Part shown: positions 2,985 through 40,875 of the stretch, piece by piece
How the letters are laid out: every line of letters starts with the position of its first letter
Position numbering within the stretch: the first letter of the stretch is position 1
Origin: Aquimarina spinulae
GTDB lineage: Bacteria; Bacteroidota; Bacteroidia; Flavobacteriales; Flavobacteriaceae
Direction of reading: 5' to 3'
DNA: 64,000 bases
NCBI RefSeq assembly: GCF_943373825.1
Contig: NZ_CALSBP010000001.1
Location: 620,001-684,000, forward strand
Translations under genes and position numbers: made by a program
The notes under the pieces: generated by a model
Told to the model about the DNA's origin: nothing
Seen by the model: only the letters and a program-made list of their open reading frames with translations
Database searches by the model: none

Positions 2985-3298
2985 TGGTTTTTATTTAATC
3001 AATATTTGAAGCAAAATTAGAAAGCAAAGAGTTCAATATTCTTAATCTAAATTAAGAAATGAACTTAATGTTGTACATTGAAAAACGAGGAGGAAAAAAC
3101 CTTAATCTAACAATGAAACCGGCACTCTTTTTTGTTTATATCATAGATAAATTTTAAATATTCTTAGCAAACAATTGATTCGATGGCTGTTATTTGGTTA
3201 TCCCGTGTATAAAGTGGAAAACATAGCTATTCGGGAATTAATCCTTTTTGAAGTATCCCCGTTGCAGCCTATTTTTATATGGTAAAAATCAATATATT
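2985..3298. other. Divergent intergenic region with nested palindrome
   Basis: These 314 bases separate the divergent ABM and threonine synthase-like genes. CTTAAT/ATTAAG (3041-3046 and 3051-3056) is nested inside AGTTC/GAACT (3030-3034 and 3061-3065), and the 10-mer CTTAATCTAA recurs at 3101-3110. This is a plausible repressor site for the ABM gene. I see no recognisable leader peptide or riboswitch for the threonine synthase side. Confidence 0.4.
3012..3019 (-). promoter_or_regulatory. Putative -7 promoter box (TAATTTTG) of the ABM gene
   Basis: On the minus strand this reads TAATTTTG, matching the Bacteroidota -7 consensus TAnnTTTG, 27-35 bases upstream of the ABM start. A well-spaced -33 TTG is not obvious, so the call rests on one box. 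The nested palindrome at 3030-3065 lies just upstream of it. Confidence 0.35.
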
Positions 3299-4465
3299 AT
3301 GCTTACTAATGAATACTCCTATCTTCGATGTGATCACTGCGGAGAAATTTATGATAAGAACGAAGTACATAGCTTTTGCTTAAAAGATAATCAACCTCTG
3401 GTTGCGCATTATAATTTACGTAACCACTTTTCTAAAAATGATTTACAAGATAGGCCGGCAACTATGTGGCGGTATCATGAGCTGTTACCTGTAGAAAAAG
3501 AAGAGAACCGCATTAGCCTGGGAGAAGGGTTTACACCTCTTCTGGTATTATCAAAACTCGAATCTACCTATAACCAATATCAATTATTGCTTAAGGACGA
3601 ATCTGGTAACCCTACAGGTTCTTTTAAAGCTCGAGGGATTAGTATGGCAGTAAGTAAAGCAAAAGAACATGGGATTACAGCAATGTGTATTCCTACTGCC
3701 GGAAATGCAGGAAGCGCTCTTAGCGCGTATTGTGCTAAAGCAGGAATCAAAGCTCATATTTTTATGCCTGAAGAAACCCCTAAAACGTTCCAACTAGATT
3801 GTGAAATCATGGGAGCTAATGTTACTAAGGTAAAAGGAAATATTGGAGATGCTGCCAGTATGATGAGATCAAAAAATGATGGATCCTGGTTTGACGTATC
3901 TACATTGCAAGAGCCTTTTAGACTAGAAGGGAAAAAAACAATGGGGTATGAAATTGCAGAGCAGTTACAGTGGGAATTACCAGATGTAATCCTATACCCT
4001 ACAGGGGGAGGTACCGGATTAATAGGAATCTGGAAAGCCTTTCTTGAAATGAAAGCTCTACAATGGATAGATCATATTCCTACCCGAATGGTAGCTGTTC
4101 AAGGAGATGGATGTAATCCTATTATTACCTCTTTTCACAATGAAATGGATCATGTGCCAAAATATGAGAATCCCGCTCCAACGATAGCGAATGGGTTAAG
4201 GGTGCCAAAACCGTTTGGAGATCGATTGATCATGAAAACATTATATGAAAGTAACGGAACAGCCATTTCTATTTCTGATCATGAAATAAAAGAAGGGATG
4301 CAGGAATTTGCAAAAACAGAAGGGTTATTTATTTCTCCTGAAGGCTCTGCAGTATGGGCTGCCTATAAAAAATTGAAGCAAACTCACTGGATAAAAGATA
4401 ATGAATCTGTGGTACTACTTAATACAGGTTCTGTATATAAGTATACCGAAAATTTATATTCATGA
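3299..4465 (+). CDS. Threonine synthase-like PLP enzyme
   Basis: A fold-type II pyridoxal-phosphate enzyme of 388 residues. It starts with a small zinc-ribbon-like segment (Cys 11, 14 and 27), followed by GSFKARG, whose Lys110 should bind PLP, the PTAGNAGSA loop, and the Gly-rich phosphate loop PTGGGTG. The stretch EPFRLEGKKTMGYEIAEQ is characteristic of archaeal/plant-type threonine synthases, which turn O-phosphohomoserine into threonine. No hom or thrB gene is near, so it may be an accessory copy or act on a related substrate. I start it at the ATG at 3299; a longer in-frame TTG at 3248 would add 17 residues with no homology feel. Confidence 0.8.
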   Translation: MLTNEYSYLRCDHCGEIYDKNEVHSFCLKDNQPLVAHYNLRNHFSKNDLQDRPATMWRYHELLPVEKEENRISLGEGFTPLLVLSKLESTYNQYQLLLKDESGNPTGSFKARGISMAVSKAKEHGITAMCIPTAGNAGSALSAYCAKAGIKAHIFMPEETPKTFQLDCEIMGANVTKVKGNIGDAASMMRSKNDGSWFDVSTLQEPFRLEGKKTMGYEIAEQLQWELPDVILYPTGGGTGLIGIWKAFLEMKALQWIDHIPTRMVAVQGDGCNPIITSFHNEMDHVPKYENPAPTIANGLRVPKPFGDRLIMKTLYESNGTAISISDHEIKEGMQEFAKTEGLFISPEGSAVWAAYKKLKQTHWIKDNESVVLLNTGSVYKYTENLYS

Positions 4466-4717: not shown

Positions 4718-5434
4718 ATGAAAAAAACAATTTTTAAAGTAATCACTATTCTAACTTTGGCAATCTTTATTAGTAGTTGCGAAACCGATGATGGTATAGA
4801 ATCAAAATTAGAGAATACATCTTCTAGCAAAAAAAATGAAGAAAATAACAATTTAGAAACAAAGAGTTCGAGTAATGTTTTTTTATTAGTTACTAGTATT
4901 GATGGTCCCTATGATACAGTAGATGGAGTACGAATACCTAAAATAGGTTCTTATGTAAATATTTCTGGAGTTAAAATTCCATCAGGTCATTTTTATGGAA
5001 CCTGGGATGTTAAATTAGGTGGATATGAAATTGTAAAAAGATCCTCCCAAAGTGTCCGACTTAAAAGAGTAACTAAAGAAGATGCTATTGTTTTCTTTTT
5101 TTACACGGAGCATGTAAATGAAAACGGAAATATAGTATTGAAATCAGATATAGCTACCTATGGTTTATCTGCAATACCTGATCCAGTACCATGTCCTACC
5201 AGTGAGCATACCAAAATGAGACAAAGTTTTTCTAAATATGCTGCTGCTATTAATTATGATGAGAGGTACACATATAACTGGACAGTTGTTAACAAAGGAA
5301 ATACATATACCGAAACAGGAAGAAATGTAAGACTACGAGGTTTTGGAAACTTTAATGTCACTCTTACTATTGCTCAAGATGGTTGTACTACGCAAACTAG
5401 AACTCAAAATTTTTATGTGAATATTGGAAGGTAG
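4718..5434 (+). CDS. Tandem lipoprotein family, copy 1
   Basis: The 238-residue product has a lipoprotein signal peptide with lipobox Cys at residue 21 (SSCETDD). Acidic residues right after the Cys resemble the Bacteroidota lipoprotein export signal, so a surface location is likely. A low-complexity Asn/Ser/Lys linker is followed by a first beta-rich domain (about residues 50-150, with GPYD and a W-to-GGYEIV core) and by an Ig/PKD-like domain at 159-238 starting CPTSEHTKM and ending near GCTTQ. Its two Cys (159 and 223) could form a disulfide. No catalytic motif is visible. It is the first of four paralogs on this strand; function unknown. Confidence 0.85.
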   Translation: MKKTIFKVITILTLAIFISSCETDDGIESKLENTSSSKKNEENNNLETKSSSNVFLLVTSIDGPYDTVDGVRIPKIGSYVNISGVKIPSGHFYGTWDVKLGGYEIVKRSSQSVRLKRVTKEDAIVFFFYTEHVNENGNIVLKSDIATYGLSAIPDPVPCPTSEHTKMRQSFSKYAAAINYDERYTYNWTVVNKGNTYTETGRNVRLRGFGNFNVTLTIAQDGCTTQTRTQNFYVNIGR

Positions 5435-5572
5435 GCAATTGCATGAAAAATAGTCATGTTTTAGATTATAGACATACATAAAGTATACCTATAGGATACT
5501 GAGTATTTATAGTACTCAGTATCCTGTATTAAGTTATTTACAATCATACATTTAACTTTTAAATAATAAGTC

Positions 5573-6256
5573 ATGAAAAAAACAATTTTTAAAACGCTTT
5601 CTGTTTTAACACTAGCTATTTTTATGAGTAGCTGTGAAACCGATGACGGTACTCTTGATACTACCCAGGAGCAATCAAAAGAGATGATAATCGATAACTC
5701 TACTACTACGAAGATGAGACCCTCTGATGATGATCCTTTCTTTAAAGTTACAGGATTTGACGGTCCTTATGATGTAATTAATGGAGAGTATGTACCTCAT
5801 ATAGGAACTTATGTAAAGGTAAGAGCAAATAATCCTTTTGGGTTTTGGAAGGCTTCAGGATGTTTTAAGCAGGTAGGGTCACGATTTCTAAGAACAAATA
5901 AAGAAAAAGGCTCAATTACACATTCTGTGAGAAGAGCTGAAGGAGGGTTTAATAGTGTTGGACATGATTTTATTGCGATTCCTGTAGTATCGCCACCGCC
6001 ACCGCCACCACCATGTCCTACTAGTGAACATACCAAAATGAGGCAAAGTTTTTCTAAATATGCTGCGGCCAGTAATTATGATGATAGATATACATATAAC
6101 TGGACAGTAGTTAATAAAGGAAATACATACCATGGAACGGGAAGTAGTATCAGACTACAAGGTTATGGAAATTTTAATGTTACGCTTACGATTGTCCAGG
6201 ATGGTTGTACTACCCAAACCAGAACTCAAAACTTTTATGTGAACATAGGAAGGTAA
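5573..6256 (+). CDS. Tandem lipoprotein family, copy 2
   Basis: This 227-residue paralog of the preceding gene has lipobox Cys21 and the same acidic CETDD start. Its middle domain keeps the GPYD...IP.IG frame but is shorter and well diverged from copy 1. The C-terminal domain (148-227) differs from copy 1 at only about 10 of 80 positions. A run of seven prolines joins the two domains; it is encoded by three GCCACC hexamers plus ACC at 5992-6012. The intergenic distance from copy 1 is 138 bp, so each copy may have its own promoter. No enzymatic motif is seen. Confidence 0.85.
   Translation: MKKTIFKTLSVLTLAIFMSSCETDDGTLDTTQEQSKEMIIDNSTTTKMRPSDDDPFFKVTGFDGPYDVINGEYVPHIGTYVKVRANNPFGFWKASGCFKQVGSRFLRTNKEKGSITHSVRRAEGGFNSVGHDFIAIPVVSPPPPPPPCPTSEHTKMRQSFSKYAAASNYDDRYTYNWTVVNKGNTYHGTGSSIRLQGYGNFNVTLTIVQDGCTTQTRTQNFYVNIGR
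5992..6012 (+). repeat. GCCACC hexamer repeat encoding a proline linker
   Basis: Three perfect GCCACC units plus ACC lie exactly at the boundary between the variable and conserved domains of lipoprotein copy 2. The repeat unit is six bases, so slippage would lengthen or shorten the proline linker in frame rather than switch the gene off. Confidence 0.7.
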
Positions 6257-6356
6257 TTAGGCAGTAGACTTGTCTTCAACTTTGAGTCATAAGCATACAG
6301 AATAGGTATACCTAATGTAATATGACCATGACTTACTATGCTTTGTATCGAGTATC

Positions 6357-6421
6357 CTAATTATTTACAATTACACATCTAATTCATAAAACAACAAATC
6401 ATGAAAAAAACAATTTTTAAA
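6357..6421 (+). repeat. 65-bp leader repeat, unit in front of copy 3
   Basis: These 65 bases, covering 44 bases of 5' leader and the first 21 bases of the gene, are identical to 7459-7523 in front of copy 4. Looser versions (a TATTxACAATxAxACATxxAA core) precede copies 1 and 2. Perfect identity in non-coding DNA beside diverged coding sequence indicates recent duplication or gene conversion. Confidence 0.8.
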
Positions 6422-7108
6422 GTAATCACTATGGTAATGCTGGCAACTTTTATTAGTAGTTGCGAGACAGATGATAGTACTCTTGATGGTCTTGAAGGAG
6501 AATCAAAAAATATATCTGTAGAGACTTCTACAATAGATAAATCTGCTACAAAAGCAGCTAATAGTTGTCATAACTGGAGTATTAAAAGATATGAAGGTCC
6601 TATGTGGATGGATTTTAGGACCCGAAAAGTATATCCTTATGTAAATACGATCACAATTGCCGAGGCAAATTGTGATGGAGTCTGGGAGGCTACCGGAGGT
6701 TTTAAAATTATTGATAATACCCATAATAAAAGAACAGTACGGGTTAAAAGAATCAATAAGAACGAAGGCAAGCTTTTTTTTATTACCAGCAATGGCGGCT
6801 ATTCTGTTCTTACTTTTGATGCTTTTATTTATCCTGATATCACAGACCCTACAGCTCCATGCCCTACTAGTGAGCATACCAAAATGAAACGAACAGGAAG
6901 AAGAACCCTTTATGCAGAGAGTTATAAGGGATATTATGCCTACAAGTGGACTATCGTTAATAGAGGAAATACGTATTATGAAACAGGAAGGGCTATTACA
7001 TTACGTATTGGAAGTTCGGATGTAACCCTTACGGTATCCAAGAAGGATTGTGCTACACAAACAAGTGTTCGAAAAAACTTTTTTATCGATGCTAATCCTA
7101 ATAATTAA
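6401..7108 (+). CDS. Tandem lipoprotein family, copy 3
   Basis: The 235-residue third paralog has lipobox Cys21 followed by ETDD. The linker contains Ser/Thr/Lys. The middle domain (about 55-145) keeps the pattern of a Trp, a GGFKII core and a RVKRINKNEG segment, which is also strong in copy 4. The C-terminal domain (154-235) keeps the CPTSEHTKM start, the YKW/GNTY/TGR core and the second Cys, but its sequence has drifted from copies 1 and 2. The start is firm because the leader and first seven codons match copy 4 base for base. Role unknown; a binding or adhesion role is only a guess. Confidence 0.85.
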   Translation: MKKTIFKVITMVMLATFISSCETDDSTLDGLEGESKNISVETSTIDKSATKAANSCHNWSIKRYEGPMWMDFRTRKVYPYVNTITIAEANCDGVWEATGGFKIIDNTHNKRTVRVKRINKNEGKLFFITSNGGYSVLTFDAFIYPDITDPTAPCPTSEHTKMKRTGRRTLYAESYKGYYAYKWTIVNRGNTYYETGRAITLRIGSSDVTLTVSKKDCATQTSVRKNFFIDANPNN

Positions 7109-7502
7109 TACCAGAGATCGGTTTAAAAAAATAAAAAGAGGCTTCTGAAAAGGTAATTCAAGGACTAAATTGTCAGTCTTAGTTTATCGAAGGGCTCTGC
7201 TTGACATTGAAAACACCATTTTCAGACCTCTTTTTTATTATAAAAGCTTATGAAAAAATCTCAATTCTATCCAAATAGGTAGAGTAGTTTAAATTTCTAA
7301 CTTTTAATAAATATACTAACGATATACGTATTATTTCACAGTAAAGAAAGTATTTTAAAACCTTCAAACAGCTACATTTTTGATTTCAATAATTGATTAG
7401 TAATTAGATATTCCTAATGCAGTATAGCCATGGCTTGCTATCTCCTGTATTGAGCATTCTAATTATTTACAATTACACATCTAATTCATAAAACAACAAA
7501 TC
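7109..7502. other. 394-bp spacer in the lipoprotein array
   Basis: The gap before copy 4 is nearly three times longer than the gaps between the other copies. It holds a long imperfect hairpin at 7133-7236 and, from about 7403 to the start codon, the conserved leader shared with the other copies. The stretch between them (7240-7400) is AT-rich and I see nothing in it. Confidence 0.6.
7133..7236. repeat. Long imperfect hairpin, possible flavobacterial palindromic repeat
   Basis: The left arm AAAAAGAGGCTTCTGAAAAGG (7133-7153, given here only to show pairing: 9 + 8 + 2 paired bases with small bulges) pairs with 7216-7236. The loop contains a segment (7171-7205) with TGTCAGTCTTAG and ATCGAAG, which resembles a short dispersed repeat that I recall from flavobacterial genomes; that recollection is not verified. 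The 3' arm ends in six T, so it can also stop transcription of copy 3. Confidence 0.5.
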
Positions 7503-7523
7503 ATGAAAAAAACAATTTTTAAA
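7459..7523 (+). repeat. 65-bp leader repeat, unit in front of copy 4
   Basis: Exact duplicate of 6357-6421, including the first seven codons of the signal peptide. The sequence just upstream (7403-7458) is also clearly related to the leader of copy 3, with substitutions. Confidence 0.8.
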
Positions 7524-8213
7524 ATTGCTTCAATTCTAATGCTAACCATCTTTATTGGTAGTTGTGAAAAAGAAGATAGCAATCTTGATATATATGATCA
7601 AGAAATGAAGGAAGTTCCTTCAGAAACCGTTTTAAATAAAGGAAATGAGAATAATAAAGCTACAAATGTTGCAGTTAACAAGTCTTCTAAATTATGGAAA
7701 ATTCTAAAATACGTACCAGGTAAAGTTATTGTTGAAAATGGACAAACTATTCCGGAAGTAGGTGTTGATATAATTGCAGAAGGATACCACCCTAATTTTC
7801 TTTTTTGGTTAGTAGACGGCTGTTTTGAAATTGTAGGGTCTGACGAAGAACAAAAGGTAACAATCAAAAGAGTCAATAAAAATGAGGGAAATATTTATTA
7901 TACATATATGGAAAATAATAGTATCATGGCAAGTCATAGAAAGTTTGTTGCTATTCCCCCAGATCATTCTTCAACACCATGCCCAAGCAGTGGACATACA
8001 ATGATAGAGCAAATTTTTAATTCTGTTCTTGATGCCAAGAATTATGATACCAAGTACACGTATAAGTGGAAAGTTGTTCATAACGGCCGTGCCACTTATA
8101 AAACAGGAAGAAGTGTTTTGCTACGTAAAGGAGGATCTACCGTTACCCTTTCTGTATCTAAAAATGGATGCACCACTCAATCAAGTGGACCTAAAAACTA
8201 CTTTGTAAGATAA
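7503..8213 (+). CDS. Tandem lipoprotein family, copy 4
   Basis: The last paralog has 236 residues and is the most divergent. Its lipobox is GSCEKED (Cys21), so the acidic run is broken by Lys. The middle domain has VENGQTIPEVG, a W-to-GCFEIVG core and a RVNKNEG segment close to copy 3. The C-terminal domain (160-236) starts CPSSGHT and keeps the second Cys and the TGRSV strand. A strong terminator hairpin follows at 8254-8284. No homology to any enzyme is visible. Confidence 0.85.
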   Translation: MKKTIFKIASILMLTIFIGSCEKEDSNLDIYDQEMKEVPSETVLNKGNENNKATNVAVNKSSKLWKILKYVPGKVIVENGQTIPEVGVDIIAEGYHPNFLFWLVDGCFEIVGSDEEQKVTIKRVNKNEGNIYYTYMENNSIMASHRKFVAIPPDHSSTPCPSSGHTMIEQIFNSVLDAKNYDTKYTYKWKVVHNGRATYKTGRSVLLRKGGSTVTLSVSKNGCTTQSSGPKNYFVR

Positions 8214-8321: not shown

Positions 8322-9443
8322 CTATGATAAATTAAACCGTTCTTTTAGAGCTTGTTTAACGCGTTCTAAACCCGCCAGGATATATTCTTTGCGTTCTCCA
8401 ATCCCTATTCTGAAATGATGGTCCATCCCATAACAATCTCCTGCCAAAATAAATACACTTTTTTCTGTACGTAACCATTCTGCCAGTTCGGTAGAATTAA
8501 TATCTAAATTGTATTTTATAAATAACATTCCGCCACTCTTTGGGGGTACATATTCAAATAAATCCCCATATTGATCGAGCCATTGCTTTACTACTATTAA
8601 GTTTTCATTAAGCATGGTTCTGTTTCGAGTTAGTATTTCTATACGTTTTTCGGGTCTTAATGCGATCTCACCAATATAATGACTCATTATGCCCGCAGTA
8701 ATAGAGGTATAATCATGATATGCCCATGTATCTGCAATCAGTGTTTCGGGACCTATTAACCACCCTAAACGTAATCCGGGTAGGGCATAGGCTTTAGATA
8801 GTCCACCGTTAACCATAACTTTGTCATACATCCCAATAAAACTTTCTATGATTTCTCCGTTTAATTCGGCTCCACGATATACTTCATCACAATATACCCA
8901 GGCATCTACACGCTTTGCGATAGCTACAATTTCCTGCATTTCTTCAGAAGAAAGTGTGTATCCTGTTGGGTTATTGGGATTACATAGCGCAATCATTTTT
9001 GTTTTTGAAGTGACAAGAGATTTTAATTCTTCGATATCGGGCCTCCATTTGTTTTCTTCACGCAAATGAAATGCCTTGGGGATACACCCCATTTCTTCGG
9101 CAATACCCCAGATCTGCATATAGTTGGGGACCATCATAACCACTTCATCTCCTTTTTCTAGCAGAGTATGACAAGCAATAAAATTCGCTTCAGAAGAGCC
9201 ATTGGTAACCAATACATTCTCCTCATTAGCGCCATTATACATCGCACTAATTCTTTTACGCAATGGGATAGAACCGTTAGTTTGCCCATACCCTAAAACA
9301 GTATTGGTAAGTGTATCTATCTGGTCTTTCTCTAATAGCTCATTAAGAGTGTAGGGATGAAAACCACTTTCTGTTAGATTATAATCTACTGTGTTTTCAA
9401 ATAAGGATTGTACTCTTTCGAGCTCAAAAATTGGAATATTCAT
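8322..9443 (-). CDS. Class I/II PLP-dependent aminotransferase
   Basis: A 373-residue fold-type I aminotransferase with NPNNPTG at residues 155-161, DEVYR at 186-190 and SKAYALPG with PLP-binding Lys217. An Arg near the C-terminus (HFRIGIG) should bind the substrate carboxylate. It is the last gene of a four-gene minus-strand operon, only five bases after the ornithine-cyclodeaminase-family gene. The context suggests it moves an amino group to or from a small amino acid such as aspartate. The exact substrate pair cannot be read from the sequence. Confidence 0.85.
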   Translation of the reverse strand: MNIPIFELERVQSLFENTVDYNLTESGFHPYTLNELLEKDQIDTLTNTVLGYGQTNGSIPLRKRISAMYNGANEENVLVTNGSSEANFIACHTLLEKGDEVVMMVPNYMQIWGIAEEMGCIPKAFHLREENKWRPDIEELKSLVTSKTKMIALCNPNNPTGYTLSSEEMQEIVAIAKRVDAWVYCDEVYRGAELNGEIIESFIGMYDKVMVNGGLSKAYALPGLRLGWLIGPETLIADTWAYHDYTSITAGIMSHYIGEIALRPEKRIEILTRNRTMLNENLIVVKQWLDQYGDLFEYVPPKSGGMLFIKYNLDINSTELAEWLRTEKSVFILAGDCYGMDHHFRIGIGERKEYILAGLERVKQALKERFNLS

Positions 9444-33290: not shown

Positions 33291-34661
33291 TTATGGATTA
33301 CGCCAGAAAGTATACACTCTTAATGTAGGATCTGCCGCGCTGGTAAATGTTCCTGCTTTATTTGAGAAATTCTGGAAATTACCAGTTGTTTCATAATAAA
33401 GACCCTCAGGATTACCAAAAAAGTCTAATAATGGCTGAGCAAAAGGTTGGAAGAACGCAAAGTTACCAAAAGTATCAGGCTCGTTCACTCCAACAAATGT
33501 CAGTACTAATTTCTTATCTACTATTGATGATGTATAGTCGTAGATACCCCAGAATAAAGCATCATCTGTTGTTCTTCTAAAACCTATCCAAATTTGAGTA
33601 TCTCTAGCATCACCGGTACGAGTTGATCTCAATTCTAATCGATCAAATATGAAGATACCGAGACCACCATTTGCAAGGTTGGTAGTAACTTGTTCTGTCA
33701 ATGCTTGAAATGCAAGAGAAGTTCTAGTATCAGGAGGAAATACTCTTGGAATATATACAAAATCTGTGAATTCAGTTCCGATATCGAAAATATCATTATT
33801 AATAAATGGAGGTTGATTAATAAATCCAATTGTTGCTTTACTTCCATCTACTCCAGAAATATAAGATTCTGATACAGTATCAAAAACAAAGTTTTCGTAT
33901 GTATTTCCGCCTATTTCTATTGCAGGGCTAACAACAAGTCCTTCTGGTGTATATGCTATACCGTAAGCGACTTCTGTAACCGTACCATCGTCAGCTTGGT
34001 TTTGAGAATTAGCAAAAAGACGTAAACTATCATAGTTAAACGTATAAAATGTTTTACCAGAACCATCTTCGATAGTTAACCCCTGAAAAACTGAAGTAGT
34101 AATTGTTGGTAAAAGACTAGCTCTTCTTCCCAAAGAAATATTAACATTATCCCATTCTGCTGCAGTTACAGGTTCGAAAACTAAAATTGCATCATGTCGA
34201 GGTTCTTTAAATGTAATTTTTCCACCTTCATTTTTAATATACTGGAAATTTGAATTTCCTTCAAATCCAGATCCGATAAGACCTTGGATATTACTATCCG
34301 ATACCTTATGAATGTGATTACGCGAAGAAAAAACTAATTCTGTAGTAGATCCCATCTTAACTTCATATCTACTAGAAGTAATTGCGGTTTCTGAATCAAA
34401 ATCAGAAGTCATCTCTACGGTACCATTACTATTAAATTTCATATAAAAAGTAAATCCACCATATTCATCATTCTTCGTGAAATAAACAGCTTTATATCCA
34501 TCAGGAGATGCCAAAAGTAAATTTTGAAGTTCTGTTACACGCTGTTCAATTCTACTACTTGGTGTTCCTTCGAATAATACCTCATTGTCATCATTGCTAC
34601 AAGAGAAAAAAATCAGTAGTAATGACCAAAACCATATTTTATTTAATGCTTTTATAACCAT
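33291..34661 (-). CDS. DUF4302-type lipoprotein of the SusCD locus
   Basis: About 456 residues with a lipoprotein signal (lipobox IFFSCSNDDNE, acidic residues after Cys). The body is beta-rich and matches what I know of DUF4302, a family coded next to SusC/SusD and HExxH lipoproteins in Bacteroidota. Key stretches are ELQNLLLASPDGYKAVYFTK near the N-terminus and GGFTFYMKFNSNGTV. Function is unknown; surface binding or holding of the imported substrate is likely. I start at the ATG at 34661; an in-frame TTG at 34685 would overlap the upstream gene. Confidence 0.8.
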   Translation of the reverse strand: MVIKALNKIWFWSLLLIFFSCSNDDNEVLFEGTPSSRIEQRVTELQNLLLASPDGYKAVYFTKNDEYGGFTFYMKFNSNGTVEMTSDFDSETAITSSRYEVKMGSTTELVFSSRNHIHKVSDSNIQGLIGSGFEGNSNFQYIKNEGGKITFKEPRHDAILVFEPVTAAEWDNVNISLGRRASLLPTITTSVFQGLTIEDGSGKTFYTFNYDSLRLFANSQNQADDGTVTEVAYGIAYTPEGLVVSPAIEIGGNTYENFVFDTVSESYISGVDGSKATIGFINQPPFINNDIFDIGTEFTDFVYIPRVFPPDTRTSLAFQALTEQVTTNLANGGLGIFIFDRLELRSTRTGDARDTQIWIGFRRTTDDALFWGIYDYTSSIVDKKLVLTFVGVNEPDTFGNFAFFQPFAQPLLDFFGNPEGLYYETTGNFQNFSNKAGTFTSAADPTLRVYTFWRNP

Positions 34662-34674
34662 TTTCTTTATTTTA

Positions 34675-35523
34675 TTAATTAACAATGTCTAAGGTATTTT
34701 GATTTACCAATTCTTGTAGCTCATATAAGTCAATGTTAAATTCATCACTAAAATATTTAACAACAAATTGCTCTTTCGTTCTTATAGAAGCTTTACCTTC
34801 TGCACTTGTAATACCATCAACAATGGCATCAAATTCAGTTTTTGAAGTGGTTAGTATAGTTGCTACCATTTCTGCAAAATCCTCTGTATCTGAACTTGAA
34901 GCGTAATCAGTTATATACCCTAATTCTCTGGCTTCTGCTATACTCCTGTTAAACCATTGAGCGGTATAATTCTGTGGGTTTACTTGCCCATAATCAGGGT
35001 CATATGGTTTAGTTTGATTTAAAATATGTGCATATTCATGCTGAATAGTTTTAAAGTATCTTCTAGTAAGTGTAAGATCTGTTAAATCTAATTGATCAAC
35101 ATTAAATAGTGTAATCTTAGTTCCTGCTTCTGCAATACCCAGAGTAATTGTTCCCGTTTGATTAAAATTGAAACCACCAACGAGAGTGAATTGTCTTGGA
35201 GAAATATTTTTAATAAAGTCTTCTCCTCCCAATTGTGTATACGGATCTATCCATACAGCTTTAACAACTTCTAATAGTGGTTGAACGTTTTCTTCTGTAG
35301 GAGGGTACAAAAATCTATTTAGATCCACTTCATTTTCATTCCACTTATATTGGATAGCTATATTATAAGGAGAAATAAAATTTTCTTTTATCCAAGAATC
35401 AAGACTAGATAACTGTGGAGCTTCTGTATTGATTTGAGAAGGCCCAATACTATCACCTTTGTCGCAATTTATAACTATTACTGTGATTGCAACTATGGTT
35501 ATCCATTTTATTATTTTTTTCAT
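34675..35523 (-). CDS. SusCD-associated zinc metallohydrolase lipoprotein
   Basis: The 282-residue lipoprotein (lipobox VINCDKGDS) carries the zinc-binding motif HEYAH in FKTIQHEYAHILNQ and a downstream EDFAEMVA with a candidate third ligand Glu. This fits the family described as substrate import-associated zinc metallohydrolase lipoproteins, coded with TonB-dependent receptors. It may trim a peptide or glycan substrate at the cell surface before uptake. It lies between susD and the DUF4302 gene, with 13-28-base gaps. Confidence 0.85.
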   Translation of the reverse strand: MKKIIKWITIVAITVIVINCDKGDSIGPSQINTEAPQLSSLDSWIKENFISPYNIAIQYKWNENEVDLNRFLYPPTEENVQPLLEVVKAVWIDPYTQLGGEDFIKNISPRQFTLVGGFNFNQTGTITLGIAEAGTKITLFNVDQLDLTDLTLTRRYFKTIQHEYAHILNQTKPYDPDYGQVNPQNYTAQWFNRSIAEARELGYITDYASSSDTEDFAEMVATILTTSKTEFDAIVDGITSAEGKASIRTKEQFVVKYFSDEFNIDLYELQELVNQNTLDIVN

Positions 35524-35551
35524 AATTATATGTTCTTAAAATTATTTAATA

Positions 35552-37042
35552 TTATCTAGGATTTTGTTGCAAACCAAAACTTTGCGCATCTACAGGGATC
35601 TGTAATTGTTTTCTGTTATCCGTTTTAGTAAGAATGCTTTCGTTGTCAAAGAAATCTTCATGAATGACTGATAGATTAAATCTTTTTATGTCAAACCAAC
35701 GTAATCCTTCATTCTGAAATTCTCTTCTTCTGTATTCTACAATACCATTTATTAAGGCTAGTTTTTCTGTATCGATAGTATAAAAAGGAGTATAGATACC
35801 TTCGGCAACAGCATGTATAGTATTAAGTTGATCTACTGTTAATACATCGGTAGCGGCATCATAATCTCTGACTTTTTTAGATAAAAAAGCATTAAGATCG
35901 TTTACGGCATTACCAGTTTGACCAAGCATAGTATATGCTTCTGCTCTGTTTAATAAGACTTCGTCTGTAGTAAGAAGTACAGAGTTTACAAAAGCAAATC
36001 CAATATTTGCAGCTGCATTGGTTGTTCTGAAATATTCAACATATTTAGGAAGGTTTAAGAATAAGTCATTACCAAATACTCGGTACCCCCATCCTTTACC
36101 ATTAACCTGAGAACCACTAAAGAAAAGGCTAGTTGCTAAATCTGATGATAATTGATATCTGGAACCTGCATAATTTCTTGCATATAGTGAATTTCCTGAT
36201 ACAAGTAGTAGGTTTGCAACCTCTGCTGTCGAAGAATATTCATTACCTATCTGAGCAAAAGTAAAACCTCTATATTTACCATTCCAATCTCTTAAAAGAT
36301 CTGCAGGAGCATCACCTAATACTTCGTTACTATATTGTACAACTTTTTCCCAATCTCCTTTGAATAAATAGAATCTTGAAGCAAAAGCATTTGCTGCACT
36401 TTTAGTAAAATGAAATTTAGGAATATCATAAGAATTAGTAACTAAAGGTAATCCTGCTACGATATCGGCTTCGATTTTTTCATAAACCTCTTTTACAGTT
36501 CCTCGTGTATAGTCCTTAATTACTATATTTTCTGGTTCAGTTACATAAGGAATTCCTAAATCAGATCCTGCAGTTGAAGGGTCATAGGTTTTAGACCAAA
36601 TATTCACTAACATAAAATGAGTATATGCTCTAGCTATTAAAGCTTCTCCTTTTAGATAATCTAACTCGCTACCACCTCCTAACTCTTCGATAGCTTGTAA
36701 TGCGTGATTAGCTTGCGAAATGGCTTCATAACACTCATTCCAATAATCAGTTGGGAAATCTGTATTGTTATCATTTACATCTCTCCAGAAATACATTTCT
36801 GTATTTACTCTTTGTTCATTTGCTGTAGGTCCTTTATCATCTGCATTATCAGTCATTGGGGCTAAAAAAGGTGCGTAGGTACCTGCTGGGTAAGCAAGTG
36901 TAATTAATTCTGCAATTTTTTCGGCAGTATCAATTTGTGTTCTATTATCTGGTATTTCATCTAATGAATCCTCACAAGAAGATATCATAAATAATGTTAA
37001 TAGACTTATACCAATTAATTTGATGTTTGTTTTCATAATCAT
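35552..37042 (-). CDS. susD: SusD/RagB family nutrient-binding lipoprotein
   Basis: The 496-residue lipoprotein has lipobox ISSCEDSLDEIP and the SusD/RagB helical TPR scaffold (YFWRDVNDNNTDFPTDYWNE; YLKGEALIARAYTHFMLVNI; C-terminal EYRRREFQNEGLRWFDIKRF). SusD proteins cap the SusC pore and bind the substrate at the cell surface. Start may be the ATG at 37042 or the next one at 37036. It follows susC by six bases. The substrate is not identifiable; an HExxH partner points to peptides or glycoproteins. Confidence 0.92.
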   Translation of the reverse strand: MIMKTNIKLIGISLLTLFMISSCEDSLDEIPDNRTQIDTAEKIAELITLAYPAGTYAPFLAPMTDNADDKGPTANEQRVNTEMYFWRDVNDNNTDFPTDYWNECYEAISQANHALQAIEELGGGSELDYLKGEALIARAYTHFMLVNIWSKTYDPSTAGSDLGIPYVTEPENIVIKDYTRGTVKEVYEKIEADIVAGLPLVTNSYDIPKFHFTKSAANAFASRFYLFKGDWEKVVQYSNEVLGDAPADLLRDWNGKYRGFTFAQIGNEYSSTAEVANLLLVSGNSLYARNYAGSRYQLSSDLATSLFFSGSQVNGKGWGYRVFGNDLFLNLPKYVEYFRTTNAAANIGFAFVNSVLLTTDEVLLNRAEAYTMLGQTGNAVNDLNAFLSKKVRDYDAATDVLTVDQLNTIHAVAEGIYTPFYTIDTEKLALINGIVEYRRREFQNEGLRWFDIKRFNLSVIHEDFFDNESILTKTDNRKQLQIPVDAQSFGLQQNPR

Positions 37043-37048
37043 TTCTTT

Positions 37049-40000
37049 TTAAAATCCAAGATTTAATGATACAGTATATTGTTTAGCAATTGGGTAAGCA
37101 ACACCTCCTGCTCTAAAGAATTCGGGATCCTGACCGTTTAATGCGTCATCTGAATAAATTAAGAAAGGGTTTGTTGACTGAAACGTCATTTTTAGATTTG
37201 ATAATCCGATTCTATCAATAGCGTCTTTAGGAAAAGTATAGGATAAAGAAATATTCTTCATTCTTATGAAATCTCCATCAGCAATTCTTTCTGTAGAGAA
37301 ATTATATGCATTATACGCTCTTGCGATTTCATTAGTTCCAACCTCATTTACCAATCTTCTTGACGGTATAACTGGGATATTGGTAGTGTTTTCATCTCCT
37401 GGAAATAACCATCTGTTCGTGAATTCTGTTGGGAAAACCGATAGGTCACTATAAAAAGATGAGTAGTAAGGGTCTAATCTAATTTTGTTTCCTGCAGAGA
37501 ATGTAAGAAAGAAACTTAAATCCCAGTTCTTATAAGTAAAATTGTTGGCAAATCCACCTGTTAAGTTTGGTTCAACAGATCCTTCGAATTTAAGATATTC
37601 CTGAATGTCTTCTACTTCCTGGAAATCAACACCAGAGATAGGGTCTCTATCATCATTAAAAACATAAGTTGGTAACCCTCTATCATCTAGTTTGTCAAAT
37701 TGGAATGAAAATAAAGATCCTCTAGGAAAACCAATTGCATTACCTCCTGTATTTGATACTAAGTCAAACACATTTGGTCTTTGTTGTAATTCGGTGATTT
37801 CCTGATCAAAATACGCAACATTAATTGTTGTTTCCCATTTAAAATTAGGACTAACAATGTTTTGTGTATTTAATTGAAATTCTATACCGTTAGTATTCAT
37901 GGATGCATTATTGGCAAGCTTAACCGATTGTCCACCAATCCCTGAGGTTCTGATTTCATCGATTAGATCTTCTCCTTTTCTAAAATATACATCTGTAACA
38001 AGAGAAATTCTATTATTAAAGAAACCAGCTTCTAAACCAAGGTTAAGTTCGAATGTCTTTTCCCAGGTTAATTCTGTGTTTTGTAAAGCAGCAATGTTTA
38101 TAGCATTCTCACGTGTATTAGGATTTAAACGATCCGTAACCACATTTCTGAAAATTGCCAAGTTATTACTTACATTATCGGCAAGTAATCCAACTAACCC
38201 ATAACTTGGTCTCAATGCAAGTTTTGAAATCCAATCTATTCTTTGAATAACGGGCTCTTGATCAATATTCCATTTAGCACCAATGTTATATGTTGGTAAC
38301 CATCTTGCATTAGATGATTTACCAGCTCTGTTTGATCCTTCATAGTTACCTGTTACATTTAAAACGTACTTATCATCAAAAGAATATGTTGCCGTAGCAA
38401 AGAAAGTAGCTCCTCTTTCTCTGGTCTGTTCTAAACCAAAATAGTTACCACCATCTAATATTATTTTATCTATTATATTAGGATCTGTGAATGGAGTACC
38501 ACCTTTATCGAATTGATATCCAAATCCTCGACTAAAACTTTCTTCTCTATTGGTAAATCTATATTCCTGACCTAGATATACTCTAATATCACTTCTTTCA
38601 CTTATGTTTTTTGTGTAGTCTAATGTGTTTCTGAAATTATAAGAGATAATCTTATTGTCTCTTCTTGTATAAATACCCCCAAATGGTAATACTACTTGTG
38701 GTCTTGAATTAGGTTGATCCGGATCTTGGAATAGAAAAGTATTTGCATTTTCAACAATCGTAGTTTCATTAGCTCTGTATGCTCCAGCAACGTTAGAGTT
38801 TTCTGTTGCTTTATGTTCATTTGCAGAAGTAGCATATCTTGCCGTACCTAAAAAGTTATATTTTAAATTATCATTGATTTTGGCTTCAAGCTCTCCTTGA
38901 ACTTTTAAATCAAGTACCGTTAATTCTGTAGTGTTGTTCTCAATTTCATTTAGAATATTAAATGGAGCCCAGTTATATCTGAAATATTCTAGGTCACCAT
39001 TATTATCTCTTGGTCTAAGTGCACGACTGGTATTAAGTGCATAACTAAAAGGATTAATATCAAAATCTCTGTCAAACCCACCATTAACTACATCAGACAA
39101 CCTGTCAAATGCACCTGGTGCATTCTGATCTCTATAAGACCCTTGTACCAAAGTAGTTACTTTATATCTGTCTCCCAGGTAGTATGTATTTCTGATATTT
39201 CCTGTAAGTCTTCTTACACGATCGGCGATTGTCCATCCCGGATCAGTAAAATATCCTATAGAAGAATAATGAGAAGAACTTTCACCACCTCCAGAAAAAC
39301 TTATAGAATGATTCTGAGTTAAACTTTCTCTAAATAATTCTTTAAACCAATCTGTATTGGCTAATTCATATTGTTGCAAAAATTGAGCTCTGGCTTCAGG
39401 AGTATTTGCAAGTTGAAAAGAGTTAGTTTCTGGATTAAAATTATTAATAGCTCTATACATTTGGTTATAAATACCACCAAATCTTCCTTGTAAACTTGAT
39501 GCAAGACTTAAATATCCTTTAGATTCTAGTTCTCTATAGATAGAAACAGTTTCTTGAGAATTAAGTAAATCAAATTGAGAATAGGTTGGTCTTGATCTTA
39601 CAGCATATTCTGCAGAGTAGCTAACCTTTGTTTTTTCATTTCTCTTTCCTGATTTTGTAGTAATTACTACTACACCATTTAGTGCTCTTGCACCATATAA
39701 TGCTGTTGCAGAAGCATCTTTTAAGATTTCAATACTAGCAATATCAGAACCGTTTAATCCTGCGACAGCAGAACTTAATAACGTACTTGAGTCTCCCGAA
39801 ACAAGATCATTTAATGATACATTTACTATTTCTTCTTGTATAGCACCATCGATAATCCAAATAGGTTTGGTGTCTCCAAGAATAGATGAAGATCCTCTAA
39901 TTGTTATTCTAGGGGTAGCACCAAAAGTTCCAGTAACATTTTGTATGGTAACACCTGCAGCACGCCCCTCTAAAGATCTAGAAATATCTGGTACACCTTC

Positions 40001-40753
40001 TAATTTTATTTCTTCGGCTTTCAAAGATTGAGCTGCTCCAGTAAAAAATTTCTTCTGGATATTTTGATAACCAGTTATTACTATTTCTTCGAGACCTTCA
40101 ACGTTTTCTTTTAATACGATATTAAATGTTGTTGTATTCTTATCTGTAATCGTAATAGTTTGAGTTTCGAAACCTATGTTTTCGATTTTAAGTATATCTG
40201 ATACCGAAACTCGCATCGTGAAATTTCCATCAAAGTCTGTAACTACTCCTTGAGTAGTTCCTTGAATAGATACAGTAGACCCGGGGATGGGGAGACCGTT
40301 TTTATCAACTACCTGCCCGCTAATTTCAAAACCTTTTTGAGGTTTAACAAGTGCAGACTGTCGTTTTTTGATTGTTGGTATATTAGAATTAGTTTCTTTT
40401 TTTACCAATACGATTTGCTTATCTACTATTTTATAAGAAACATTAGTATTTCTAAATATTTTATCTAAAATATATTCTACTCTTTTGTTAGAAGCTTTAA
40501 AGGATACCTTTCTTTTAGTATTTACTTCGGCATCTTTAAAAAATACTTTAAATTCAGTTTTTTGCTGTATTAAATCAAATACTCTCTCAATTGTAAAGTT
40601 TTTCACATCTAGTGAAATCTTGGTGTTTTGAGAATACGTATTTGCATTTATTCTAAATAGAGACAATATAATTAATAGTATTGTTAGCCTCATTTTCAAA
40701 TTAAATATTAATTTTGCCACACCATTTGTGTGGTTTTGTCTAATTATTTTCAT
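37049..40753 (-). CDS. susC: SusC/RagA TonB-dependent outer-membrane receptor with STN domain
   Basis: About 1234 residues. After the signal sequence (about 22-42) comes an STN domain (ISLDVKNFTIERVFDLI...VFFKDAEV), then a carboxypeptidase-regulatory-like domain (FEISGQVVDKNGLPIPGSTV), the plug with DVSRSLEGRAAG-type and GALRNGVVVITTK-type SusC signatures, and the 22-strand barrel. The STN domain means it also signals inward to the FecR-type anti-sigma factor coded just upstream, like FecA. It imports a substrate captured by SusD using TonB energy. I prefer the ATG at 40753 to one ten codons earlier (40783). Confidence 0.92.
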   Translation of the reverse strand: MKIIRQNHTNGVAKLIFNLKMRLTILLIILSLFRINANTYSQNTKISLDVKNFTIERVFDLIQQKTEFKVFFKDAEVNTKRKVSFKASNKRVEYILDKIFRNTNVSYKIVDKQIVLVKKETNSNIPTIKKRQSALVKPQKGFEISGQVVDKNGLPIPGSTVSIQGTTQGVVTDFDGNFTMRVSVSDILKIENIGFETQTITITDKNTTTFNIVLKENVEGLEEIVITGYQNIQKKFFTGAAQSLKAEEIKLEGVPDISRSLEGRAAGVTIQNVTGTFGATPRITIRGSSSILGDTKPIWIIDGAIQEEIVNVSLNDLVSGDSSTLLSSAVAGLNGSDIASIEILKDASATALYGARALNGVVVITTKSGKRNEKTKVSYSAEYAVRSRPTYSQFDLLNSQETVSIYRELESKGYLSLASSLQGRFGGIYNQMYRAINNFNPETNSFQLANTPEARAQFLQQYELANTDWFKELFRESLTQNHSISFSGGGESSSHYSSIGYFTDPGWTIADRVRRLTGNIRNTYYLGDRYKVTTLVQGSYRDQNAPGAFDRLSDVVNGGFDRDFDINPFSYALNTSRALRPRDNNGDLEYFRYNWAPFNILNEIENNTTELTVLDLKVQGELEAKINDNLKYNFLGTARYATSANEHKATENSNVAGAYRANETTIVENANTFLFQDPDQPNSRPQVVLPFGGIYTRRDNKIISYNFRNTLDYTKNISERSDIRVYLGQEYRFTNREESFSRGFGYQFDKGGTPFTDPNIIDKIILDGGNYFGLEQTRERGATFFATATYSFDDKYVLNVTGNYEGSNRAGKSSNARWLPTYNIGAKWNIDQEPVIQRIDWISKLALRPSYGLVGLLADNVSNNLAIFRNVVTDRLNPNTRENAINIAALQNTELTWEKTFELNLGLEAGFFNNRISLVTDVYFRKGEDLIDEIRTSGIGGQSVKLANNASMNTNGIEFQLNTQNIVSPNFKWETTINVAYFDQEITELQQRPNVFDLVSNTGGNAIGFPRGSLFSFQFDKLDDRGLPTYVFNDDRDPISGVDFQEVEDIQEYLKFEGSVEPNLTGGFANNFTYKNWDLSFFLTFSAGNKIRLDPYYSSFYSDLSVFPTEFTNRWLFPGDENTTNIPVIPSRRLVNEVGTNEIARAYNAYNFSTERIADGDFIRMKNISLSYTFPKDAIDRIGLSNLKMTFQSTNPFLIYSDDALNGQDPEFFRAGGVAYPIAKQYTVSLNLGF

Positions 40754-40875
40754 ATTTTTAATATGATTTAATGATTGAACCATTGTTAAATTACGCTTAC
40801 TCTAAATCGGGAGATGTTGCAGCATTTCTCGATTTTTTTGTTTTCTAGTCATTTTGGAAACATACTTTTTTTGCT

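Follow-up and report, generated by a model that had tools for sequence, protein, structure and literature searches.

Re-paired middle domains in a tandem array of predicted surface lipoproteins from Aquimarina spinulae

Described systems and the Aquimarina array

In Mycoplasma and Borrelia, families of variable lipoproteins join a conserved leader to a variable body, are encoded by recombining paralogues, and vary within a clone. In Staphylococcus aureus, the tandem DUF576 (Lpl/Csa/TilA) lipoproteins differ among strains in both number and sequence, according to PMC10730906, and PMC12548429 reports that BT1927, a phase-variable S-layer lipoprotein of Bacteroides thetaiotaomicron, affects phage resistance. 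Here we describe a tandem array of four intact open reading frames (ORFs; 238, 227, 235, and 236 residues) at positions 4718-8213, on the plus strand, of a 64,000-nucleotide stretch of A. spinulae DNA (contig NZ_CALSBP010000001.1, positions 620,001 to 684,000), referred to below as the window; the genome that holds it comprises 6.24 Mb in 3 contigs. We assign a probability of roughly 60% to the reading that the products are predicted surface lipoproteins whose middle domain is a cassette swapped by recombination, with several classes of middle kept by selection for difference.

In outward pattern, the array comes nearest to the S. aureus DUF576 clusters. Unlike them, it belongs to another phylum, has no DUF576 match and no recognized toxin nearby, and re-pairs its middle domain with separate classes of C-terminal domain. 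The array proteins are Bacteroidota lipoproteins like BT1927 but, in contrast to the phase variation reported for that protein, the array genes all face one way, and no recombinase or long inverted repeat was recognized. Unlike in the Mycoplasma and Borrelia families, the variation of the array was seen only between genomes. Among the papers listed in literature searches on Aquimarina lipoproteins, tandem or variable lipoprotein clusters, and domain shuffling in Bacteroidetes, none was recognizable as dealing with the array family. We regard the array proteins as a new lineage-restricted family showing a kind of evolution that is already known.

Domain layout and re-pairing of the middle domains

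All four proteins have a signal peptide with a lipobox Cys21; in their alignment, the N-terminus is conserved, the middle diverges, and a C-terminal domain (C-domain) starts at a Cys-Pro pair. The first-pass annotation, made from the letters of the window, had proposed four tandem lipoproteins with Cys21 and a Cys-bounded C-terminal domain, constant at their ends and variable in a middle of very different length. The intact ORFs and the alignment establish the four genes as real, but the length differences did not hold up, the distance from Cys21 to the first C-domain Cys being 137, 126, 132, and 138 residues in proteins 1-4. The middles differ strongly in sequence, as claimed (20-32% pairwise identity), but they are not unrelated, forming a single homologous family with an invariant Trp and Arg. 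The constancy of the ends stands for the signal peptides (62-81% identity) and, in that they are recognizably one family, for the C-domains; the latter are about 80 residues long and bounded by two Cys residues that are invariant in 25/25 aligned C-domains, but share 43-48% identity in five of the six window pairs (88% for proteins 1 and 2).

The idea that the middles are unrelated domains was rejected because one alignment takes in all classes and because the models of proteins 1 and 2 place nine middle strands in the same order. In the model of protein 2, 124 of the 227 residues have a predicted local distance difference test score (pLDDT) of at least 90, and every stretch below 50 lies within residues 1-53. 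Both the middle and the C-domain are predicted to be Ig-like beta sandwiches, and a disordered, lipid-anchored N-terminus would carry the two. Profile comparison of the middle with the C-domain gave no evidence of an internal duplication (probability 1.9% over 12 columns). A short CCGCCA-type repeat at 5990-6013 codes the hinge of protein 2, and the length of this hinge varies among relatives.

For class assignment, 21 proteins were divided into signal peptide, middle, and C-domain. The middles fell into discrete classes M1 to M5 (67-100% identity within a class and 18-36% between classes; 75-100% within a class when the two single-gene M3' proteins are counted separately), and the C-domains into Ca to Cd (about 64-100% within and 35-51% between). 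Nine combinations were present: M1-Ca (1 protein), M2-Ca (4), M2-Cc (2, with 96-100% identity in both domains and possibly of a single lineage), M3-Cb (3), M3-Ca (2), M3'-Cd (2), M4-Cc (2), M4-Ca (2, including one whose Ca is divergent), and M5-Cc (3, among which the signal peptide is of two kinds). The maximum-likelihood trees of the middle and the C-domain reject each other, with delta logL values of 751 (approximately unbiased test, p = 0.001) and 397 (p = 0.019). Sliding identity switches near the Cys-Pro junction, at about nt 410-500 of the gene, in three mosaics (MAG_2, atl_2, and AU_2); AU_4 switches in the signal-peptide region instead. On the basis of the re-paired classes, the conflicting trees, and middles less diverged than their flanks (see below), the middle, at times with neighboring parts, appears to have been exchanged as a module by recombination, as would be expected of surface molecules under pressure to differ.

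Synonymous differences in each module were compared with those in 7 to 9 flanking genes among four genomes, in 29 tests that treated synonymous sites as independent (Bonferroni limit, 0.0017). Five of the 29 tests passed, and all five were middles with too few synonymous differences: M4 between the window genome and AU58 (p = 0.0016, barely), between the window genome and atlantica (6e-6), and between AU58 and atlantica (1e-7); M2 between AU58 and atlantica (1e-6); and M5 between AU58 and megaterium (4e-7). For M2 of AU58 and atlantica, the proportion of synonymous differences (pS) was 0.043 in the middle, 0.317 in the C-domain of the same genes, and 0.282 in 9 flanking genes; high identity continues to about nt 550, just inside the C-domain. 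M3 was nominally low in three genome pairs (0.009-0.022). By these values, genomes last shared some middles after their flanking genes had already diverged. A module that is low in one genome pair may not be low in another, which favors transfer over constraint. With some C-domains nominally low as well (see below), the shared stretches vary in extent and are centered on the middle.

The array contains more repeated DNA than expected by chance. A block of about 480 bp (728-1199 in array coordinates, where position 1 is window 4461; Table 1) recurs at 6010-6487 (1550-2027) with 77% identity, so the middle cassettes sit between homologous DNA; in addition, 185 bp at the start of gene 3 resemble the start of gene 4. 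Just three inverted pairs of at least 20 nt were found in the array (23-30 nt, 73-78%), none of them long, and the shorter inverted repeats of the spacers are hairpin-sized and unlike from one spacer to another. No cassette is oppositely oriented, all four genes lying on one strand, and no recombinase was recognized among ten flanking genes scanned with Pfam; an invertible, shufflon-type phase-variable system is not what these features describe. Each cassette is bounded by homologous DNA of the leader and signal peptide on one side and of the C-domain on the other. Because long inverted repeats and a recombinase were not recognized, ordinary homologous recombination is the probable agent, acting by unequal crossing-over among the array genes and by exchange with transferred DNA. 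The spacer of genes 1 and 2 has an inverted repeat at 5490-5528 (16-nt arms, 94% complementary, 7-nt loop) that is possibly a terminator; the other array spacers have no equally good one. The leaders of the array genes are alike, but no firm promoter could be assigned.

Surface location, selection, and competing explanations

The residues that follow the lipobox Cys bear on location. PMC5080379, on lipoprotein export, gives C-X-K-(D/E)2-X as the optimal surface-export signal of Capnocytophaga; for two other Bacteroidetes, the sequences given are SDDDD and SDDFE. Protein 4 (C-E-K-E-D) fits the Capnocytophaga optimum exactly, the only one of the four window proteins to do so, and proteins 1-3 (C-E-T-D-D) fit just the looser rule of a polar residue followed by two acidic ones. 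Among the fetched stretches, a loose motif (Cys, any residue, Lys/Gln/Thr/Ser/Asn, two acidic residues) was present in 21/27 family ORFs versus 4/36 other lipobox ORFs. The array N-termini resemble a Bacteroidetes surface-export signal, and surface display is likely because the residues after the Cys fit the motif and the motif is enriched in family ORFs. With less certainty, the proteins would stand on the outer surface with the middle as their recognition part, and selection for difference (by phage, contact toxins, predators, or recognition of host or neighbor) may keep the middle classes in circulation.

Pairwise ratios of nonsynonymous to synonymous divergence (dN/dS) were 0.16-0.60 within middle classes and 0.01-0.13 in four flanking genes, values that suggest looser selection on the middles than on the flanks, yet still purifying. 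Diversifying selection on point mutations is not supported by ratios that do not exceed 1; given these ratios, the diversity seems to come from the swapping of modules.

Several points weigh against cassette exchange maintained by selection for difference. No partner gene indicates a ligand for the array proteins, their surface location is a prediction from the export motif, and the variable domain directly follows the linker, a membrane-proximal position that is unusual for a recognition domain. The dN/dS ratios below 1 within classes give no direct sign of positive selection. Among the divergence tests, 24/29 did not pass, the three passing M4 tests share genomes and are not independent, and M2 is as diverged as the flanks between the window genome and AU58. 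Exchange extends beyond the middles, because four C-domain tests were nominally low: window genome-AU58 Cb (p = 0.010), window genome-atlantica Cc (0.003, attached to the low M4), AU58-atlantica Cc (0.042), and AU58-megaterium Cc (0.031, attached to the low M5). The gene count of megaterium, moreover, is a minimum because a contig end cuts its array.

A serious rival, although one to which we give rather low odds, is neutral birth and death with gene conversion, in which like tandem paralogues recombine into mosaics that have no functional meaning. The repeat blocks, about 480 bp long and 77% identical, are likely substrates for recombination, selection within classes is purifying, and some C-domains are nominally low in divergence as well. 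The two Ca domains of megaterium have the lowest synonymous divergence (dS) of 28 Ca pairs (0.198; the next is 0.315), as within-genome conversion predicts, and a Cc C-domain occurs in the final gene and in no other in 5/5 multi-gene arrays, as expected if the unique downstream flank anchors it; these arrays are related and are therefore not five independent cases. On such neutral terms, however, it is hard to place the restriction of the five passing tests to middles, though C-domains of the same genes were tested too, and the persistence across genomes of several anciently diverged middle classes (18-36% identical).

Two functional alternatives appear less probable. Ig-like modules are common in substrate- or glycan-binding surface lipoproteins, and each middle class might bind a different glycan; the glycan-binding protein SGBP-B of Bacteroides ovatus is among the weak Foldseek matches (6e57, E 0.007), but such matches are no stronger than those to many unrelated Ig-like chains, and no glycan-uptake or glycan-degrading gene was recognized among the ten flanking genes, which makes this proposal improbable in our estimation. 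Slightly more remote still is a role in immunity or as decoys, each middle class neutralizing a different toxin secreted by a rival as for DUF576 (Lpl/TilA) of S. aureus; the outward pattern of a tandem lipoprotein cluster varying in number and sequence among strains is the same (PMC10730906), but no toxin or secretion gene was recognized among the ten flanking genes (3/10 without a Pfam match), and the four window proteins gave no DUF576 match in Pfam at E up to 10.

Cassette exchange under selection for difference can be extended to a view that we hold tentatively and consider doubtful, namely that the site serves as a library of surface recognition domains, replenished by recombination, and that strains of Aquimarina exchange middle cassettes even between species. 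Recombination in the conserved DNA of the signal peptide and C-domain would give each strain a private set of Ig-like surface domains, shown to phages, rivals, or partners, by a logic like that of an allorecognition or variable-receptor locus. If right, the array would be a compact and testable case, in environmental Bacteroidota, of a single surface domain being exchanged as a cassette between species, one in which the switch points are clear and synonymous divergence allows relative age to be estimated; it would also be a starting point for learning which pressures (phages, contact toxins, or algal or animal hosts) diversify the Aquimarina surface.

Family range and chromosomal site

On the profile evidence, no named family is convincingly matched by the array proteins, as the first-pass annotation had supposed for this domain order, and the middles were not seen to match one known family of fixed function. 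In a Pfam scan at E up to 10, proteins 1-3 matched no family and protein 4 matched four, all below the cut-off and none of them PKD or DUF576. Among 29 family members, the best family was Sgo0707_N2 (E 0.0029, in two), followed by Ig_7 in four (best 0.021) and PKD_6 in one (0.18); significant matches to PKD, PKD_4, or PKD_6 were absent from the window proteins and the 29 members. The C-domain shares a Y-x-W ... G-x-x-x-V-T-L ... C pattern and a predicted sandwich with the PKD and CHU_C-associated Ig-like domains of secreted Bacteroidota proteins, but PKD-type models do no better than that E 0.18, and the array proteins are short lipoproteins. Another 12 genomes of the order contain long open frames with weak matches to the C-domain (E 8e-6 to 1e-3); one such protein, when scanned, had PKD and CHU_C domains, with the C-domain match outside its best PKD stretch. 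Matches to the array proteins occurred in 18/66 genomes and reached the C-domain in 12/66; in 6/18 they were weak (best E 1e-5 to 5e-4) and covered the N-terminal part. The middle was detected in Aquimarina only, at the sensitivity of genome searches that scored a limited share of the first-look candidates in distant genomes (for example, 9, 13, or 14 of up to 56).

The fetched stretches held 32 family ORFs or fragments. Of these, 26 entered the alignment (A2); the six omitted were a megaterium contig-end copy with a 604-nt match in the next contig, a G024 copy that lacks the middle, one Aquimarina mytili copy, two G056 fragments, and a megaterium signal-peptide fragment. The G024 copy (L061:8170-8643, 157 residues) joins the signal peptide directly to the C-domain, an A. 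mytili gene (L067:6592-7566, 324 residues) has two C-domains in tandem, and the G056 gene (L070:8179-8888) lies in two frames and is apparently broken. Elsewhere in the window genome, near 694085 of contig C2 (L005:1501-2724), a 407-residue lipoprotein has only its N-terminal region in common with the array; the remainder consists of repeats of about 36 residues with a V-I-P-x-x-W-V-L and W-x-I-x-C pattern.

The flanking aminotransferase is present in 16/66 genomes, and copy number was compared in the eight where it is at least 97% identical. Array genes numbered 4 in the window genome, 4 in AU58, 3 in atlantica, at least 3 in megaterium, 2 in the genome labeled MAG, 1 each in G024 and macrocephali, and 0 in G035, where the two flanking genes are 136 bp apart; the pieces of the broken megaterium array overlap by 604 nt without mismatch. 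Thus, number and content vary among relatives at one site, constancy was not seen, and AU58, labeled as the same species as the window genome, carries a different gene set. In MAG and G024, the enzyme of the left flank was not observed next to the array. In the other eight aminotransferase genomes, the neighborhood is different and no family gene adjoins the aminotransferase. The ten flanking genes comprise pyridoxal phosphate (PLP) enzymes, an ornithine-cyclodeaminase type, a peptidase, a cNMP-binding protein, one weak monooxygenase match, and three without a match.

Table 1. Coordinates of the array and adjoining features in the window
Feature	Position	Strand	Remarks
PLP-dependent enzyme, left flank	3248..4465	+	PALP match; threonine-synthase-like by eye
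Lipoprotein 1 (M1-Ca)	4718..5434	+	signal peptide and Cys21; middle 4871-5191; C-domain 5192-5431
Repeat block	5188..5659	+	C-domain of gene 1, spacer, and signal peptide of gene 2
Lipoprotein 2 (M2-Ca)	5573..6256	+	middle 5729-6013, with poly-Pro hinge at its end; C-domain 6014-6253
Leader and signal peptide of gene 3	6303..6487	+	81% identical to gene 4 leader, 7405-7589
Lipoprotein 3 (M3-Cb)	6401..7108	+	middle 6563-6859; C-domain 6860-7105
Lipoprotein 4 (M4-Cc)	7503..8213	+	middle 7683-7979; C-domain 7980-8210
Class I/II aminotransferase, right flank	8322..9443	-	adjoins the array in 7/7 genomes with an array here

At a second site, with neighbors similar by ORF length, four genomes carry a single diverged family gene (L058:8631-9365, L060:8401-9108, L063:8977-9702, and L065:8524-9249); the window genome showed no such copy. 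On the minus strand of the window, positions 33291-40783 carry what, judged by eye from gene size and order, may be a SusC/SusD-type set, together with two further lipobox ORFs.

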